From a virus: a DNA stretch of 32,110 bases. Location: positions 1-32,110 of the IMG/VR virus record IMGVR_UViG_3300025280_000104, one strand, 5' to 3'. Numbering within the stretch: the stretch's first letter is position 1; each line of letters starts with the position of its first letter. This document shows positions 13,901 through 31,734 of this stretch, piece after piece. The translations under genes were made by a program, and so were the position numbers. The notes under the pieces were generated by a model that had not been told where the DNA came from, made no database searches, and saw only the letters and a list, made by a program, of their open reading frames with translations.

Positions 13901-14327
13901 TCTCCGAAACAAGGGCGTTCTTAAATTACTTACCTCCTCGAAGATGCGGGCGTCGGAATACAACAAGGCTTTGGCGGCTGGAGCAAAGCTACCCACACTG
14001 GCAAGAGCGCGGGAAGCCGGCGAGATAACCTACGCCTTGAATCGGATTGGATCGATACTCGCATCCGAGACGGCCATTGCTACGGGAGCGGGGGTTGGTC
14101 TCATGGGTGAAATGGAAGATGAATCCACCAAGATAGCACAACGAACGGTTAGGGATATTCAACAAGGACGCCGACAACCTACAACACGTACACCTCGTAC
14201 TAGATCTGATATACCTCCCTTAATTTCAAGAGAAGAATGGTATGGAGCCCGACCTGTCCCCAGAGGTCTGGATGCCTTGCGCCAAGTTGAACAGAACAAA
14301 TTACTTGGGATAGCACCGGGGCAATAA
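10980..14327 (+). CDS. Very large internal virion / ejection protein, 1115 aa
   Basis: The start is supported by AAAGGT eight bases upstream. The N-terminus (MGVVRIKVPQGIATVTIAGD, then PTPEEMERVRKHF) is a short leader pattern seen in the largest internal proteins of related phages, followed by an acidic Thr/Glu-rich stretch (about 45-80). A glycine-rich hydrophobic segment lies at about 166-190 (AAAIGASIAVTGVGFIPGMA) and another near 937-977 (GGIAAAPAAIAMIGLIASGQ), both candidate membrane-insertion elements. The rest is long, charged alpha-helix. By size, position and pattern it probably plays the role of the T7 gp16 core protein, spanning the envelope during ejection, but I see no lytic transglycosylase motif. 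Its stop overlaps the endolysin start. Confidence 0.8.
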   Translation: MGVVRIKVPQGIATVTIAGDVPTPEEMERVRKHFSADAPSIDAEDFRVVEDETATETTVTETEQETVEEPDGEVKDTLLRYMTGRMDTDEEKQNLLNQLLGEGASRRLSEDTFVIDQEKVAPEIREKYGLADSGTIYLDKPGFTGMDIIDFGGESGPSVAAAIGASIAVTGVGFIPGMAIVGGSAALAKAADESIEWAQGLNRQSAGQVAASIATEGVLNAVFEGAGRIVAKGVGRLIKGPGPQISAQRIDELVETGMSARRARTVAREEALSQYRRMVAAGARPTVQAAVGKSLAARALAVNEKIMPNPRVGEENVRFVEQMLKNVDEGVITQEEALERLFANNQAISNLISQNLADPDKAFKLSKQHLDDVVKKELDRFEAIFVPSTKLPEEYSESARLVSSLFKTESQNLYELAKRTMGADGEFSSKPIIDALEELAADNPFVQYTGSLFNTLKDPKHATMSIDRLQQLKAALRLSAGDPDLVAPAAQAGIGKLITSIDDLLDGKFLELSRNLARGYKIERHSAGAVDAAGKAVGGRFYTVPLGPGEKESLRQGLGQWKEANVFYGEGQEQFNNVAVNNIVKQAKDRYFTSNLEVMRTTVDAGNAPKLQMYLDAITPTSNMAQRLVQSGATETVERVRALVDGDQFVAAQDLVFESGLSSVLPKIQGFMEQLPRNDVFRVMQKQAYLEELDNALYLSRAGTDPKMIRESVRNGLAKHWIDAKKLKSQELGQFSPTKFADHFSELGPKMQDTLFGTETAATMREAMDAFRLTAMDSQNAAKFFDTMPTMVNQPLREGIQSLKEISEQAVSESSDAVLKAVRSGEITSPKDLVAGLLDNPSSYKRLSSVIGDTELTKVGGVKDMVMNNLIHANIGKTPFNEAHIQSGAWGKALKDNIFSQNKNGALNTILGVDVVKALDSIADDAIRISDVPIKGFGGIAAAPAAIAMIGLIASGQWITAGVTAGTVVGLSRILRNKGVLKLLTSSKMRASEYNKALAAGAKLPTLARAREAGEITYALNRIGSILASETAIATGAGVGLMGEMEDESTKIAQRTVRDIQQGRRQPTTRTPRTRSDIPPLISREEWYGARPVPRGLDALRQVEQNKLLGIAPGQ

Positions 14328-14773
14328 TGCAACTCTCCGACCACTTCTCCTTGCGTGAGTTGACCAAGTCGCAGACCGCGGAGCGTCTGGGCATTGCCAA
14401 TGAACCCGATGACGAGGCGGTCGAGAACCTCATCATACTCTGTGACATGATCCTCGAGCCGGTTCGCAATCACTATGATACGCCGTTCGTTCCCAACAGC
14501 GGCTTCCGGTGCCTGGAGCTTAACCGGGCCATCGGCTCGTCCGACACGTCGCAGCACACGACCGGAGAGGCCGTCGATTTCGAGGTTCCCGGCGTTCCCA
14601 ACAAGGACCTCGCTCTCTGGGTCAAGGACAACTGCAAGTTCGACCAGTTGATCCTCGAGTTCTACAAGGACGACGATCCGGCCAGCGGCTGGGTCCATTG
14701 CAGTTACGTCATTGATGGCGACAACCGCCATTCCGCACGGATCTTCGACGGCAAGACGTGGAGCGATCTGTAG
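14327..14773 (+). CDS. Peptidase M15-type endolysin, 148 aa
   Basis: The length and motif order match the small phage M15 peptidases (Peptidase_M15_3-like) that cut peptide cross-bridges of peptidoglycan. Zinc ligands are visible as H77 and D84 in SQHTTGEAVDFE and H124 in GWVHCSY; E111 in FDQLILEF is a reasonable catalytic acid. The segment VPNSGFRCLELNRAIG (55-70) is the usual arginine/serine part of the fold. No signal peptide or membrane segment is present, so release needs a holin, not identified among the late genes here. The ATG overlaps the upstream TAA by one base. Host lysis is the likely role; acting as a virion-borne wall enzyme is an alternative because it is embedded in the virion gene block. 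Confidence 0.93.
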   Translation: MQLSDHFSLRELTKSQTAERLGIANEPDDEAVENLIILCDMILEPVRNHYDTPFVPNSGFRCLELNRAIGSSDTSQHTTGEAVDFEVPGVPNKDLALWVKDNCKFDQLILEFYKDDDPASGWVHCSYVIDGDNRHSARIFDGKTWSDL

Positions 14774-27408: not shown

Positions 27409-27566
27409 CTGTTCTTTCCTCTATCGTAGTTTGCGCGGATCGATGCCGCGTGTTGCATCCAGAGATCCCGGATGTCAGGGTCGTGCGCCCTGGCCGCTGC
27501 CTCGAGGCACCGGTCAATGCGCCAGAAGCATAGTTCCAGGTCGTCCAGTTGTCGCTCTGATGTCAT
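27393..27566 (-). CDS. Small helical protein, 57 aa
   Basis: This gene is short but well supported: its ATG overlaps the TGA of the 388-aa gene (ATGA) and its 3' end overlaps the next gene start by 16 bases, with that gene's ribosome-binding site inside it. The product, MTSERQLDDLELCFWRIDRC and on to WMQHAASIRANYDRG, is predicted to be all-helical. No family is recognised. Confidence 0.7.
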   Translation of the reverse strand: MTSERQLDDLELCFWRIDRCLEAAARAHDPDIRDLWMQHAASIRANYDRGKNRCLDG

Positions 27567-28729
27567 GCACTTGTCCCCCCCACCCTTCGGCCTTCTTCAT
27601 TCTCGATACCGGTGTACCAGTCTCCGATTTCCTTCATATCTATGTATCCCGTGTGATCCTCGTCGTCGGCTACCGAATGCGATTTGACATCCAGCGTCGA
27701 CAAGTCCTGATGATGCCATCCCGGCACCGTGATGTTGATGCTGTAACCATTCCAGATGAACTTGCGATGTCCCCTGAAGTGCGTCCTTACATAAGTCTCG
27801 CCACCTGTCTGGAGGTCTCTCTTGTGGGCGCGGACAATGTGAAAGATGGGTTTACGCTGGCCGCTCGGTGTCTTGTAGACCTCCCTGTCCTTGAAGAAGT
27901 AAGGTGTTCGAAGGATCGAGATAGAAAACACGGCAACCAAGCCGTCCTTGGTCACATGGACCTTGGTCATTTCTTCGTGCTGCCGGGAGAAGGCGTTCAC
28001 CGCCGTGATGAAACTGCCGATGAGGAGGACTTCGACCTCCATGCCACGTTCCTTCGCCCAATCCTTGAAAAACGGATGGATACTCCATTTCCGGTTTGGC
28101 ACATTGAAGGTTCGGCCTTTCGATCCCCAGCTGCTTCTTCGCTTGGATCGCACGCGGACGGGTACGTTCGTCAGCGTCTTCAGGCATTTTATGTCGCCGT
28201 CTTCTGAGACGTGCAGGGCATACTCGCCCACCATGGCGGTTTTGTTCTTGTCCTCCCAGAAAAAAGCCATGGTGTAGATGTCGCCACCGCCCTGCACCCG
28301 TTGGATCTCCTGCGGCGCTCTCTTCTTGTCGTATTTCTGGAAGTAGATGAGGCTGGGAAATATTTTATCGTCGTCATCGTTTGCTCTGTAGCGATAGCCT
28401 GTATAAAACGCCGCGAAGGACGGGCGGTGCGTTTTCCACCATCCGCGCATGTGACGATACTCCTCGAAATCCCAGGCGTTCTCAAAACTCCACATATCGG
28501 CCATGACGAAGGCACCGACCTTCTTGTAGAGGTCGTATGCCTCGCGGTCGTGTTTCTTCATTCGCTTCAAAACTCTGAACTGGTCGTCCAGATAATCGAG
28601 GATGTTGGCCTTGAAGCTGTAGAGATCTGGTTCTCTCTCGGGCTTGGGGGCTGCGAGCGCCTTGGTCGGCTGCTCTTTTCCGATCCAGAGCAATAGCAGC
28701 AGATAAAACCGTTTTATTTGCGCGACCAT
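27563..28729 (-). CDS. Unknown phage protein with hydrophobic N-terminus, 388 aa
   Basis: The largest gene of unit D. The first 30 residues have basic residues, a hydrophobic core FYLLLLLWIG (8-17) and ALAAP (25-29), resembling a short signal peptide or signal-anchor. The rest is soluble and aromatic-rich, with SFENAWDFEEYRHMRGWWKT (about 81-100), KIFPSLIYFQKYDKKRAPQE and FSISILRTPYFFKDREVYKT. No catalytic motif or known family is seen. Its start directly abuts the TAA of the upstream gene. It may be a membrane-associated or exported early protein; the export idea is inferred from the N-terminus only. Confidence 0.75.
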   Translation of the reverse strand: MVAQIKRFYLLLLLWIGKEQPTKALAAPKPEREPDLYSFKANILDYLDDQFRVLKRMKKHDREAYDLYKKVGAFVMADMWSFENAWDFEEYRHMRGWWKTHRPSFAAFYTGYRYRANDDDDKIFPSLIYFQKYDKKRAPQEIQRVQGGGDIYTMAFFWEDKNKTAMVGEYALHVSEDGDIKCLKTLTNVPVRVRSKRRSSWGSKGRTFNVPNRKWSIHPFFKDWAKERGMEVEVLLIGSFITAVNAFSRQHEEMTKVHVTKDGLVAVFSISILRTPYFFKDREVYKTPSGQRKPIFHIVRAHKRDLQTGGETYVRTHFRGHRKFIWNGYSINITVPGWHHQDLSTLDVKSHSVADDEDHTGYIDMKEIGDWYTGIENEEGRRVGGTSA

Positions 28730-29302
28730 TTATTCCTCCACAAATCGGTCAGGGGCGGGTTCGTCGCTCAGCGAGTTCTCCTTCAACCCTTTCAATTCCT
28801 CCTCCATCTCCCTGATTCTAGTCTGACTGCGCGAGCGGTATTCATTAAAGCGTTGTTTTACCGCCGCAAGATGTTGAGTGCCTTCCTCTTCGACGCTTAC
28901 CCCAGTCTCGAGCCAGCGAACGATCCATGCGTTCACCGACTGGCCTCGGCGTTTTGCGAGCGCGTCGATCTTGATTTTCAGATCGGAGGTCATCCGTAAA
29001 GTCCCGCGATACTCGGACAGGTCATCGTGTGATAACAACTCACACTCCTCGGAGTGTTCCCGCAGCCATGACTTCGCTTGCTCAAGGGTCACAGGACGCA
29101 GATCACGGCGTTGAAAGGAATAGGGGTCTCCGTTAGCCTTAAACCGAGAATAACGCGAGCAGTAGGCGACAAAGTAGTCGCCACGTTTCCTCGTTTTGAA
29201 AAGCGCCCTGTCGGCGGACCCCGCAATCTCCATCGCGGTCTCCGTGTTGTAGGTGCGATGGTCGATTATACGCTTGATCCTGTGATTAAAGATTCTGGTC
29301 AT
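28730..29302 (-). CDS. Two-domain protein with ribbon-helix-helix-like region, 190 aa
   Basis: AAAGGAGA lies before the ATG. Residues 1-90 resemble a small phage/plasmid domain that begins YNTETAMEIA and continues FKTRKRGDYFVAYCSRYSRF and PVTLEQAKSWLREHSE. Residues about 100-133 (GTLRMTSDLKIKIDALAKRR, then SVNAWIVRWLETG) look like a HicB/ParD-type ribbon-helix-helix. The C-terminal 45 residues are a charged coiled coil (YRSRSQTRIREMEEELKGLK). The combination suggests a DNA-binding regulator that dimerises through the RHH and coil. Target unknown. Confidence 0.8.
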   Translation of the reverse strand: MTRIFNHRIKRIIDHRTYNTETAMEIAGSADRALFKTRKRGDYFVAYCSRYSRFKANGDPYSFQRRDLRPVTLEQAKSWLREHSEECELLSHDDLSEYRGTLRMTSDLKIKIDALAKRRGQSVNAWIVRWLETGVSVEEEGTQHLAAVKQRFNEYRSRSQTRIREMEEELKGLKENSLSDEPAPDRFVEE

Positions 29303-29314
29303 CGAGTTCTCCTT

Positions 29315-29452
29315 TCATTGTCGCAGCCATTCTTCCTCTTCCGGTGTTTGTGGAACCGTGTCGTGGATGACCGGTTCGTCGGGTTCCCCCAAAGAAATGA
29401 CGGCGATCACCGGAACCCCGCCGTCTTTCTTAATTGGTAATCGGTATTTCAC
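29315..29452 (-). CDS. Small acidic protein, GTG start, 45 aa
   Basis: The GTG start overlaps the TGA of the preceding membrane peptide gene (GTGA). The product begins VKYRLPIKKDGGVPVIAVIS and ends TPEEEEWLRQ, with a strand-rich middle. The upstream part of this open frame is Cys/His/Arg-rich and looks like antisense of the neighbouring genes, so it is excluded. Coupling to two membrane peptides suggests a soluble partner, but function is unknown. Confidence 0.6.
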   Translation of the reverse strand: MKYRLPIKKDGGVPVIAVISLGEPDEPVIHDTVPQTPEEEEWLRQ

Positions 29453-29535
29453 AAGACACCCATGATGACGCCGACAATCAGGGCGCCGGCAATAGTGCCG
29501 ATGGTGTACAGAGCAACGGCTTCCAGGACGATCAT
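29449..29535 (-). CDS. Tiny single-span membrane peptide, 28 aa
   Basis: Almost the whole product is one transmembrane helix with a single acidic residue (E5) near the N-terminus and two GxxxG packing motifs (G13-G17 and G22-G26). GGGAG is seven bases before the ATG, which overlaps the TGA of the 46-aa membrane gene by one base. It could oligomerise in the inner membrane as a holin-like, antiholin or superinfection-exclusion peptide. The case rests on start signals, overlap and hydrophobicity. Confidence 0.6.
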   Translation of the reverse strand: MIVLEAVALYTIGTIAGALIVGVIMGVL

Positions 29536-29675
29536 CACAAAGCTCCCAAGCCGGCAATCACACTGCCGATGAAGATTAGTGCAAAAAATTCCCAGCCCAT
29601 TCTCGACTCCCAGTGTTTAGGATTGGTAATGATTTTCCAGAGCTTCCTCATGAAGCCCACCCCATTGGCGCTCAT
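29535..29675 (-). CDS. Small C-tail-anchored membrane protein, 46 aa
   Basis: AAGGA eight bases before the ATG at 29675 is one of the better start signals in this operon. The first 26 residues are soluble and basic (MRKLWKIITNPKHWESR); the last 20 (MGWEFFALIFIGSVIAGLGA, ending L) form one transmembrane span. The basic side would stay in the cytoplasm by the positive-inside rule. It overlaps the previous gene by 59 bases and the next by one. An in-frame ATG at 29651 is a possible alternative start. Holin-like function is possible but not shown. Confidence 0.65.
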   Translation of the reverse strand: MSANGVGFMRKLWKIITNPKHWESRMGWEFFALIFIGSVIAGLGAL

Positions 29676-29838
29676 TTAATTTCCTTTCAAGCCACTTGGC
29701 TCGCTTGCCACGGACCTCCAGCCAGAGGTCCGTGATCCACAAATACGGCTCGCCAACCGAAGGCGATGCGCTTCCAATCTCATAGCATACCGTCACGGGC
29801 ATGCCATGCCTGACGGTGGTGTCGAATTCAATCGCCAT
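29617..29838 (-). CDS. Conserved small phage protein, 73 aa
   Basis: The product MAIEFDTTVRHGMPVTVCYE, with GEPYLWITDLWLEVRGKRAK and an end WGGLHEEALENHYQS, follows the layout of small phage early proteins that have two beta strands, a proline region and a C-terminal helix with EEALE-like residues. Its ATG is 11 bases inside the upstream zinc-ribbon gene. Its 3' end is shared with the start of the 46-aa membrane gene. Function unknown. Confidence 0.75.
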   Translation of the reverse strand: MAIEFDTTVRHGMPVTVCYEIGSASPSVGEPYLWITDLWLEVRGKRAKWLERKLNERQWGGLHEEALENHYQS

Positions 29839-30037
29839 TTGTGACCGTCCGATCCGAAGTGACCTCGCCCTGATTGTTGCAATGCTCGCAGTCGGCGGCT
29901 ACGTCCGCAACGAGGACGTAGCCGTTGCCGTGACACACGGGACATGGAACGAGTTTTTCTGCCATTGCTGCGGGGACTGTGTCCCACATTTTGAGGGCGT
30001 TAGACAGGGGGCGATTAAAAGGATCCGCAGAACTCAT
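29828..30037 (-). CDS. DnaJ-type zinc-ribbon protein, 69 aa
   Basis: C32PVCHGNGY and C50EHCNNQGE form two CxxC pairs (C32/C35 and C50/C53), close to the CxxCxGxG repeat of the DnaJ cysteine-rich domain. There is no J-domain, so it is a minimal zinc finger rather than a co-chaperone. GGAG before the ATG supports the start. It overlaps the preceding gene by 23 bases. It may bind protein partners or nucleic acid during early infection. Confidence 0.8.
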   Translation of the reverse strand: MSSADPFNRPLSNALKMWDTVPAAMAEKLVPCPVCHGNGYVLVADVAADCEHCNNQGEVTSDRTVTNGD

Positions 30038-31149: not shown

Positions 31150-31734
31150 ATGAAACGACGTGTTGACACTAAAGCGGAAGAGATTGAAGAGGCATATGGC
31201 CGCAAGATCACCAATCGTCAGAAGACGTTTGCGCGGCACTATGTGGACGGACTGCACTCAAATGCGGAGTGCGCGAGGATGGCTGGATACTCCCAAAAGT
31301 ACGCTCGCATCCAAGCGTATAAACTTTTGAGCCAGACTTACTTTCCGCATGTCGCGGAGTTCATCGAGGAGTTACGCGAGGAACGCGAGCGAAAATACGG
31401 CGTGACCTTGATGGGTCAACTCAAGCGGCTGCGCGAGCTTTCGCTTGGCGCCGAAGATCAGGGACAGTTTTCGGCGGCGATAAATGCCGAGAAGACACGA
31501 TCCGCTCTTGGCGGACTCACGGTGGACAGGCGTGAGACAAACCACTTCCACGCGATTGAAAACATGAGTCGCGAGGAGATTGAAACGCGCCTTTCGGAGA
31601 TACGAAAGAACCACCCCAGTGCTTTTGTCGATGCAGACTTTAAGGTGATTGATGGCAACGCTGAAACCGGAAGCGAGCCTGTGGAAGAAACTGAAGGGGA
31701 AGCTACCCCCGCATTGGAACACCACACGGATTGA
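31150..31734 (+). CDS. terS: Terminase small subunit, 194 aa
   Basis: The N-terminal helix-turn-helix region (KITNRQKTFARHYVDGLHSN, 19-38, then ECARMAGYSQKYARIQAYKL) is the signature of Terminase_2-type small subunits, which recognise the packaging site and load the large subunit. Residues 70-140 are helical and charged, as needed for ring assembly. The C-terminal 30 residues are acidic and low complexity, and their DNA is also read as the start of the next gene. The large terminase would be expected downstream of the window. AGGGG upstream of the ATG is a weak ribosome-binding site. Confidence 0.88.
   Translation: MKRRVDTKAEEIEEAYGRKITNRQKTFARHYVDGLHSNAECARMAGYSQKYARIQAYKLLSQTYFPHVAEFIEELREERERKYGVTLMGQLKRLRELSLGAEDQGQFSAAINAEKTRSALGGLTVDRRETNHFHAIENMSREEIETRLSEIRKNHPSAFVDADFKVIDGNAETGSEPVEETEGEATPALEHHTD

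Follow-up and report, generated by a model that had tools for sequence, protein, structure and literature searches.

A conserved tiny membrane-peptide gene of uncultured phages carries the sequence signature of a second, internal start

The window analysed here is the whole 32,110-nt stretch of virus record IMGVR_UViG_3300025280_000104. Near one end it carries three tiny genes on the minus strand, followed by a gene with a DNA-binding region and preceded by two further small genes (Table 1). A preliminary description of this DNA, made from the sequence alone, had listed the three as frames of 46, 28 and 45 codons. All were found, and comparison with related contigs backs them as genes. The claimed overlaps were borne out, at 1 nt (TGATG) between genes 1 and 2 and 4 nt (GTGA) between genes 2 and 3, as was the claim that two of the three have clear ribosome-binding sites: Shine-Dalgarno (SD)-like sequences precede gene 1 (AAAGGAA) and gene 2 (GGGAG), and gene 3 is without one. 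An overlap absent from that description is the 59 nt that the upstream 73-aa gene shares with the start of gene 1. Gene callers routinely miss peptides of 20-40 residues. The M15 peptidase of the window, an endolysin-family enzyme, is encoded outside the cassette, 15 kb away.

The window polymerase is 65-81% identical to its counterparts in many marine virus contigs, the longest of which reach 56-58 kb, and one 6.1-kb contig (L001) matches the window at 99.7%. Beyond the DNA-binding gene, the product of positions 27563-28729, 388 aa long, matches no Pfam or PHROG family and has one relative, 24% identical, in contig L073.

Table 1. Features of the cassette and its surroundings in the 32,110-nt window.
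Feature	Position	Strand	Remarks
Gene 1 as first called, 46 aa, MSANGVGFMRKLWKIITNPKHWESRMGWEFFALIFIGSVIAGLGAL	29535..29675	-	SD-like AAAGGAA before M1
Gene 1, conserved part and putative long form, 38 aa	29535..29651	-	Basic amphipathic N-terminus and one transmembrane (TM) helix
Gene 1, inferred short form, 21 aa, MGWEFFALIFIGSVIAGLGAL	29535..29600	-	Internal Met start
Internal Shine-Dalgarno-like GGGAG	29607..29611	-	6 nt before internal ATG
Gene 2, 28 aa, nearly all TM helix, MIVLEAVALYTIGTIAGALIVGVIMGVL	29449..29535	-	
Gene 3, 45 aa, soluble, MKYRLPIKKDGGVPVIAVISLGEPDEPVIHDTVPQTPEEEEWLRQ	29315..29452	-	GTG start
Upstream 73-aa gene	29617..29838	-	Weak phrog_18992 match, E 1.3e-4, unknown function
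Small CxxCxGxGY zinc-motif protein	29828..30037	-	Weak DnaJ-type zinc-motif match below cut-off
Downstream 190-aa gene, ribbon-helix-helix (RHH)/Arc-like DNA-binding region	28730..29302	-	phrog_795 1e-6, Arc-like phrog_582; sub-threshold HicB/RHH in Pfam
M15 peptidase (endolysin family)	14327..14773	+	PF08291 7e-20; phrog_894 endolysin 9.6e-42

On sequence comparison, gene 1 is a member of a previously unnamed family of membrane peptides. It was first seen in six contigs in a search of relatives, and scanning 2.9 million viral contigs with an alignment then brought the number to 61. The preliminary description had proposed looking for conserved frames at the same place in related phages; the gene 1 frame is open in all 61 contigs, with no frameshift or stop. 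These contigs represent 45 distinct places, as counted from contig fragments, all of them in uncultured phages. A second scan using a broader alignment added zero viral contigs, and there was no convincing gene 1 homolog among 50,697 records of cultured phages. One further match, in a small contig assigned to a Bacteroidetes MAG, probably reflects the mis-binning of a phage contig. A diverged homolog in G028 occupies the same spot, between the zinc-motif gene and a methylase.

The alignment of gene 1 (A4, 26 distinct rows) has the consensus MKKIWKxIRNKxxWESRMGWEYFALIFIGSLIAGL. Residues 1-8 of the 46-aa frame show no conservation in relatives. Conservation in the window starts at M9, and the conserved product is thus 38 aa, although, given the SD-like sequence at M1, translation may also include the first eight residues. 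The helix is under purifying selection (dN/dS about 0.19). The N-terminal extension, at 0.69, is also coding, as second codon positions vary least, and its net charge is basic in each of the 26 sequences, including where it is cut down to MKRKKK. AlphaFold predicts N-terminal helices followed by a TM helix at residues 20-36 of the 38-aa product, with low to moderate confidence (pLDDT 76). Within the helix, a small-xxx-small pair at positions 30 and 34 is conserved. The family of unknown function PHROG 26051 weakly matched gene 1 positions 2-35 in five of the 26 members, at a best E of 0.014 that is not significant, and the PADLOC models of known anti-phage defence families gave no match for the peptides of genes 1, 2 or 3.

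A second feature of gene 1 lies within the frame. In a non-redundant set of 25 sequences (<93% identical), the internal methionine (M26 of the 46-aa frame, M18 of the 38-aa form, position 29600) and the glycine after it are invariant in 25 of 25, an invariance that the scan patterns may themselves have favoured in part. The nucleotides before this ATG are nearly fixed as TGG GAG AGT AG(A/G) ATG, beyond the needs of the protein. The glutamate codon is GAG in 22 of 23 relatives, the serine codon AGT in 19 of 21 (vs about 12% of Ser codons) and the arginine codon AGA or AGG in 20 of 21 (vs 23% of Arg codons), counts that are indicative, since the gene 1 sequences are related to one another and so do not give the codon tests independent samples. 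The pattern continues after the ATG, where Glu is GAA in 23 of 24 and TAT occurs in 19 of 23; later helix codons (Gly29, Ser30, Leu, Ile) vary normally. In the window the serine is TCG, and GAG, GGGAG and the spacing are retained. The predicted anti-SD pairing energy at M18 has a median of -7.3, a value that 6% of internal Met codons attain. The search did not create the fixed codons as an artefact, because its patterns were defined on amino acids and back-translated into all possible codons. No consensus RNA structure was found around the internal start.

Could the motif instead be the end of an overlapping gene? At some loci the upstream zinc-motif gene does stop at a TAG within it, but the motif persists with no real gene ending there in, for example, L091, L096, L099, L103, L105, L118, L119 and L149. 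Because many relatives thus have no neighbouring gene that ends at the motif, overlap cannot explain it in those cases, and we rejected this account as a general one. At the level of nucleotide pattern, the fixed synonymous positions before M18 are what an internal ribosome-binding site would be expected to leave behind. Together, the invariant Met, the constrained SD-like GGGAG and the always-basic extension indicate a long and a short (21-aa) product. Gene 1 thus appears to be made as two versions from two in-frame starts, each with a putative ribosome-binding site, the longer version bearing a basic extension. This two-start signature hints at a regulated, membrane-acting switch.

Genes 2 and 3 recur jointly in one other, diverged lineage (L144, L145/L146, L148), where they encode 20 and 46 aa and keep the same order and 4-nt overlap, as the proposed check at the same place had asked. 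The 20-aa counterpart of gene 2 (MLEAYAIFWITAVVVGILFL and variants) lies between genes 1 and 3 and retains the LEA/LEV start; conservation of gene 2 rests on two diverged lineages, a thinner basis than that of gene 1. The preliminary description had drawn attention to the helical character of gene 2 and its two GxxxG motifs. The helical character is kept in the relatives; the motifs are present in the window but are not conserved, because the 20-aa relatives hold a single Gly. Gene 3 is 59-63% identical to its relatives at the protein level, with 24 invariant positions, and its DNA differs from theirs at 52-53 of 123 nt (dN about 0.36, dS saturated). Its AlphaFold model, a confident one, is a beta-beta-beta-alpha arrangement (pLDDT 88), for which a fold search returned no structural match, with nothing below E 0.6. 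The description of the cassette as membrane peptides with a soluble partner, encoded by real tiny genes, is supported.

The genomic setting of gene 1 is largely constant. In 40 of the 45 distinct places it lies in an island bounded by the small-terminase gene and a helicase gene; the other five fall between UvrD-like helicase and DUF6378-polymerase genes, which is not a lysis or structural cluster. Within the island, a C5 cytosine methylase (PF00145) directly follows gene 1 at 27 of 40 loci, and another DNA methyltransferase (phrog_757, 1.6e-68) and the zinc-motif gene precede it at many. The 190-aa RHH/Arc-like gene takes the place in the window where this methylase (Dcm) follows in most relatives. 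A functional tie between gene 1 and the cytosine methylase was rejected, as the peptide outlives the enzyme: gene 1 is kept in the window, L091, L094, L096 and L100, where the methylase is absent or a remnant. Remnants of the methylase start (MITTLDLFAG..., MITGIGGFALGLEATGFF...) stand directly behind an intact gene 1 in L094 (~2214) and L096 (~4111) and point to recent methylase loss.

A SleB-type cell-wall hydrolase with a secretion signal (PF07486, 2.6e-20; phrog_938 endolysin) is encoded within 3 kb downstream of gene 1 at 13 of the 24 loci that are long enough; none was found in the window. In L146 (5854-6339) and relatives, such a SleB/Hydrolase_2 protein with a secretion-signal-like N-terminus sits inside the terminase-helicase island. 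Many relatives have it on top of the conserved M15 peptidase encoded elsewhere, and thus two endolysin-type enzymes per genome.

Is gene 1, then, a holin? Having seen no holin beside the endolysin, the preliminary description offered the cassette as a possible missing lysis timing module. As stated, this is not supported: the holin candidates of relatives lie outside the range of the window. Their apparent absence is an effect of where the fragment ends, because those candidates are ~8 kb past the small terminase gene, and the window stops a few hundred bases beyond that gene. In G018, a 57.8-kb relative that bears genes 1-3, a holin-like gene (phrog_2359, 1.1e-4) lies between the large terminase and portal genes. 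The same region holds an Rz-like spanin (phrog_739, 4.5e-14) together with an overlapping frame of lipoprotein-like character, possibly an Rz1 counterpart. At the corresponding place, G007 (55.8 kb) encodes GTA_holin_3TM (PF11351, 2.1e-22), a stronger call than that in G018; neither record is certified complete, and the large terminase and portal of both were named from sequence and position. The cassette of G018 lies about 13 kb from its holin-like gene and spanin, and so outside the lysis cluster to which a holin gene would belong. The lysis-like cluster of G018 (L156:18720-20000, L157:1-1427) also includes a membrane protein with an EF-hand-like motif.

No convincing holin was found beside the M15 peptidase in nine relatives examined, and curated holin profiles from Pfam and PHROGs gave no significant match to the 26 gene 1 members. 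The weak matches (PF04531, E 0.031; phrog_297, E 0.048) occurred in one member of 26 each, and we rejected these holin hits as weak. A separate protein of 70-71 aa, whose N-terminus is coiled-coil-like and which has a C-terminal TM helix, is kept in the 56-58 kb relatives (L157:9793-10005; L159:16225-16440; the L172 region). Its layout resembles that of hemolysin XhlA (in one, phrog_937 at E 0.014).

A start pair combined with a basic extension is a hallmark of the lambda S and S21 holin genes (PMC9671378). Like the dual-start holin/antiholin genes of lambda (S105/S107) and phage 21 (S68/S71), gene 1 has two putative starts with SD-like sequences, the longer product adding basic N-terminal residues. 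It differs from them in having one TM segment rather than three or two, in starts that are 6 to about 27 codons apart rather than 2-3, in lying away from endolysin and spanins, and in matching no family. Class III holins such as T4 t likewise have one TM segment and a cytoplasmic N-terminus, which for gene 1 is predicted, but their large periplasmic domain (PMC9636201) is absent from gene 1, where at most a few residues follow the helix and the putative short form is 21-25 aa; gene 1 falls outside this class. Single-span membrane proteins that influence lysis are documented (PMC13056207; PMC12642591). Among them, LysF1b of mycobacteriophage cluster F1 is, like gene 1, a single-span phage membrane protein, and it can affect lysis beside another holin-like protein; it differs from gene 1, whose N-terminus is predicted to be cytoplasmic, in being N-out with a charged cytoplasmic tail and in sitting in the lysis cassette (PMC13056207).

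Gene 1 is probably not the main lysis trigger of these phages. The genes, their conservation and the sequence signature at the second start are observed; as an explanation of them, the best in our view, held tentatively and at somewhat less than an even chance, is that gene 1 is a two-form, accessory membrane effector of takeover or exclusion. The cassette would be an accessory set of tiny genes in the small-terminase/helicase island, probably expressed before the late genes. Gene 1 would supply a single inner-membrane peptide made at two lengths. The long form (38-46 aa), from the upstream start, has a positively charged amphipathic extension that should keep its N-terminal end cytoplasmic; the short form (21 aa), from the internal Met and its own putative ribosome-binding site, would have little beyond the helix and no basic anchor. 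The two would associate through their shared helix, and their ratio would set activity. Another bare helix would come from gene 2 and a small soluble partner from gene 3, both genes being stop-start coupled and present in some lineages only.

The most likely use of such an effector would be modification of the inner membrane during takeover, for example to exclude other phages or to give protection together with the DNA methyltransferases nearby. Small early phage membrane proteins, T4 Imm for instance, serve exclusion and host takeover. By description, gene 1 can be likened to Imm-type proteins in that both are small membrane proteins whose genes stand apart from the late genes for lysis and structure. 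The suggestion of an early exclusion or host-takeover set, also made in the preliminary description, is compatible with the methyltransferase-rich neighbourhood, which as such is weak evidence for function. In its specific form, the proposal is of a two-start switch in a single-helix peptide: a 21-aa bare helix would be controlled by a 38-46-aa, basic-anchored version, and marine phages would reuse the pair, away from the lysis cluster, as a portable effector at the membrane. The second bare helix and the 45-aa beta-beta-beta-alpha protein would be its optional partners. We regard this specific form as possible, with real doubt.

Secondary lysis regulation is the strongest rival to an accessory takeover effector, because two starts with a basic extension mark the lambda and phage 21 holin genes. 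Here gene 1 would act in holin/antiholin-like fashion from its two starts, the long basic form restraining the short one until triggering, together with the downstream secreted SleB-type hydrolase. The echo of the dual-start motif (PMC9671378), the closeness of the hydrolase at about half of the long-enough loci and the precedent of lysis pathways with extra single-span membrane proteins (PMC13056207) speak for it. We nevertheless consider it unlikely, if a serious contender: relatives have their holin candidates elsewhere, strongly in G007 and more weakly, with a spanin, in the cassette-bearing G018; no hydrolase is present in the available sequence around the five polymerase-side places or was found in the window; and holin-family matches are single and weak. 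Gene 1 could also be a membrane tether that recruits a neighbour to the inner membrane, be it the cytosine methylase, the zinc-motif protein or replication proteins. A tether would suit its position immediately before the methylase, usually with a stop-start overlap, and between helicase and polymerase genes at five places. But the peptide persists where the methylase is missing or a remnant, the two neighbourhoods have no partner in common, and a short form that lacks the cytoplasmic extension would have nothing to tether with, all of which make a tether distinctly unlikely.

Two readings would deny the peptides any function. If the frames were leader or coupling peptides, translation would matter for the next gene and the products would be functionless themselves, as the stop-start overlaps with downstream genes at most loci might suggest. 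Against this, the amino acids of the helix are conserved while third positions are free, net charge is conserved, and gene 1 is kept before unrelated downstream genes; we judge leader peptides to be very improbable. Frames of such shortness commonly arise at random, but gene 1 is conserved across two neighbourhoods and tens of phage lineages, and gene order is retained in diverged relatives. Chance open frames without function can practically be dismissed for the cassette, and for gene 1 conservation refutes them.

The gene 1 peptide is kept across many uncultured marine phages, and its family offers specific sequences that can be put to the test. Should the two forms both be produced and oppose one another, they would rank with the smallest known regulated membrane switches, and dual-start control would be shown to extend beyond lysis genes. 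At the far side of the island, the small-terminase frame of the window (31150-31734) and the next, nuclease-like frame (from 31649) overlap by ~85 nt (31649-31734), and the two frames are arranged likewise in G018 and G007.
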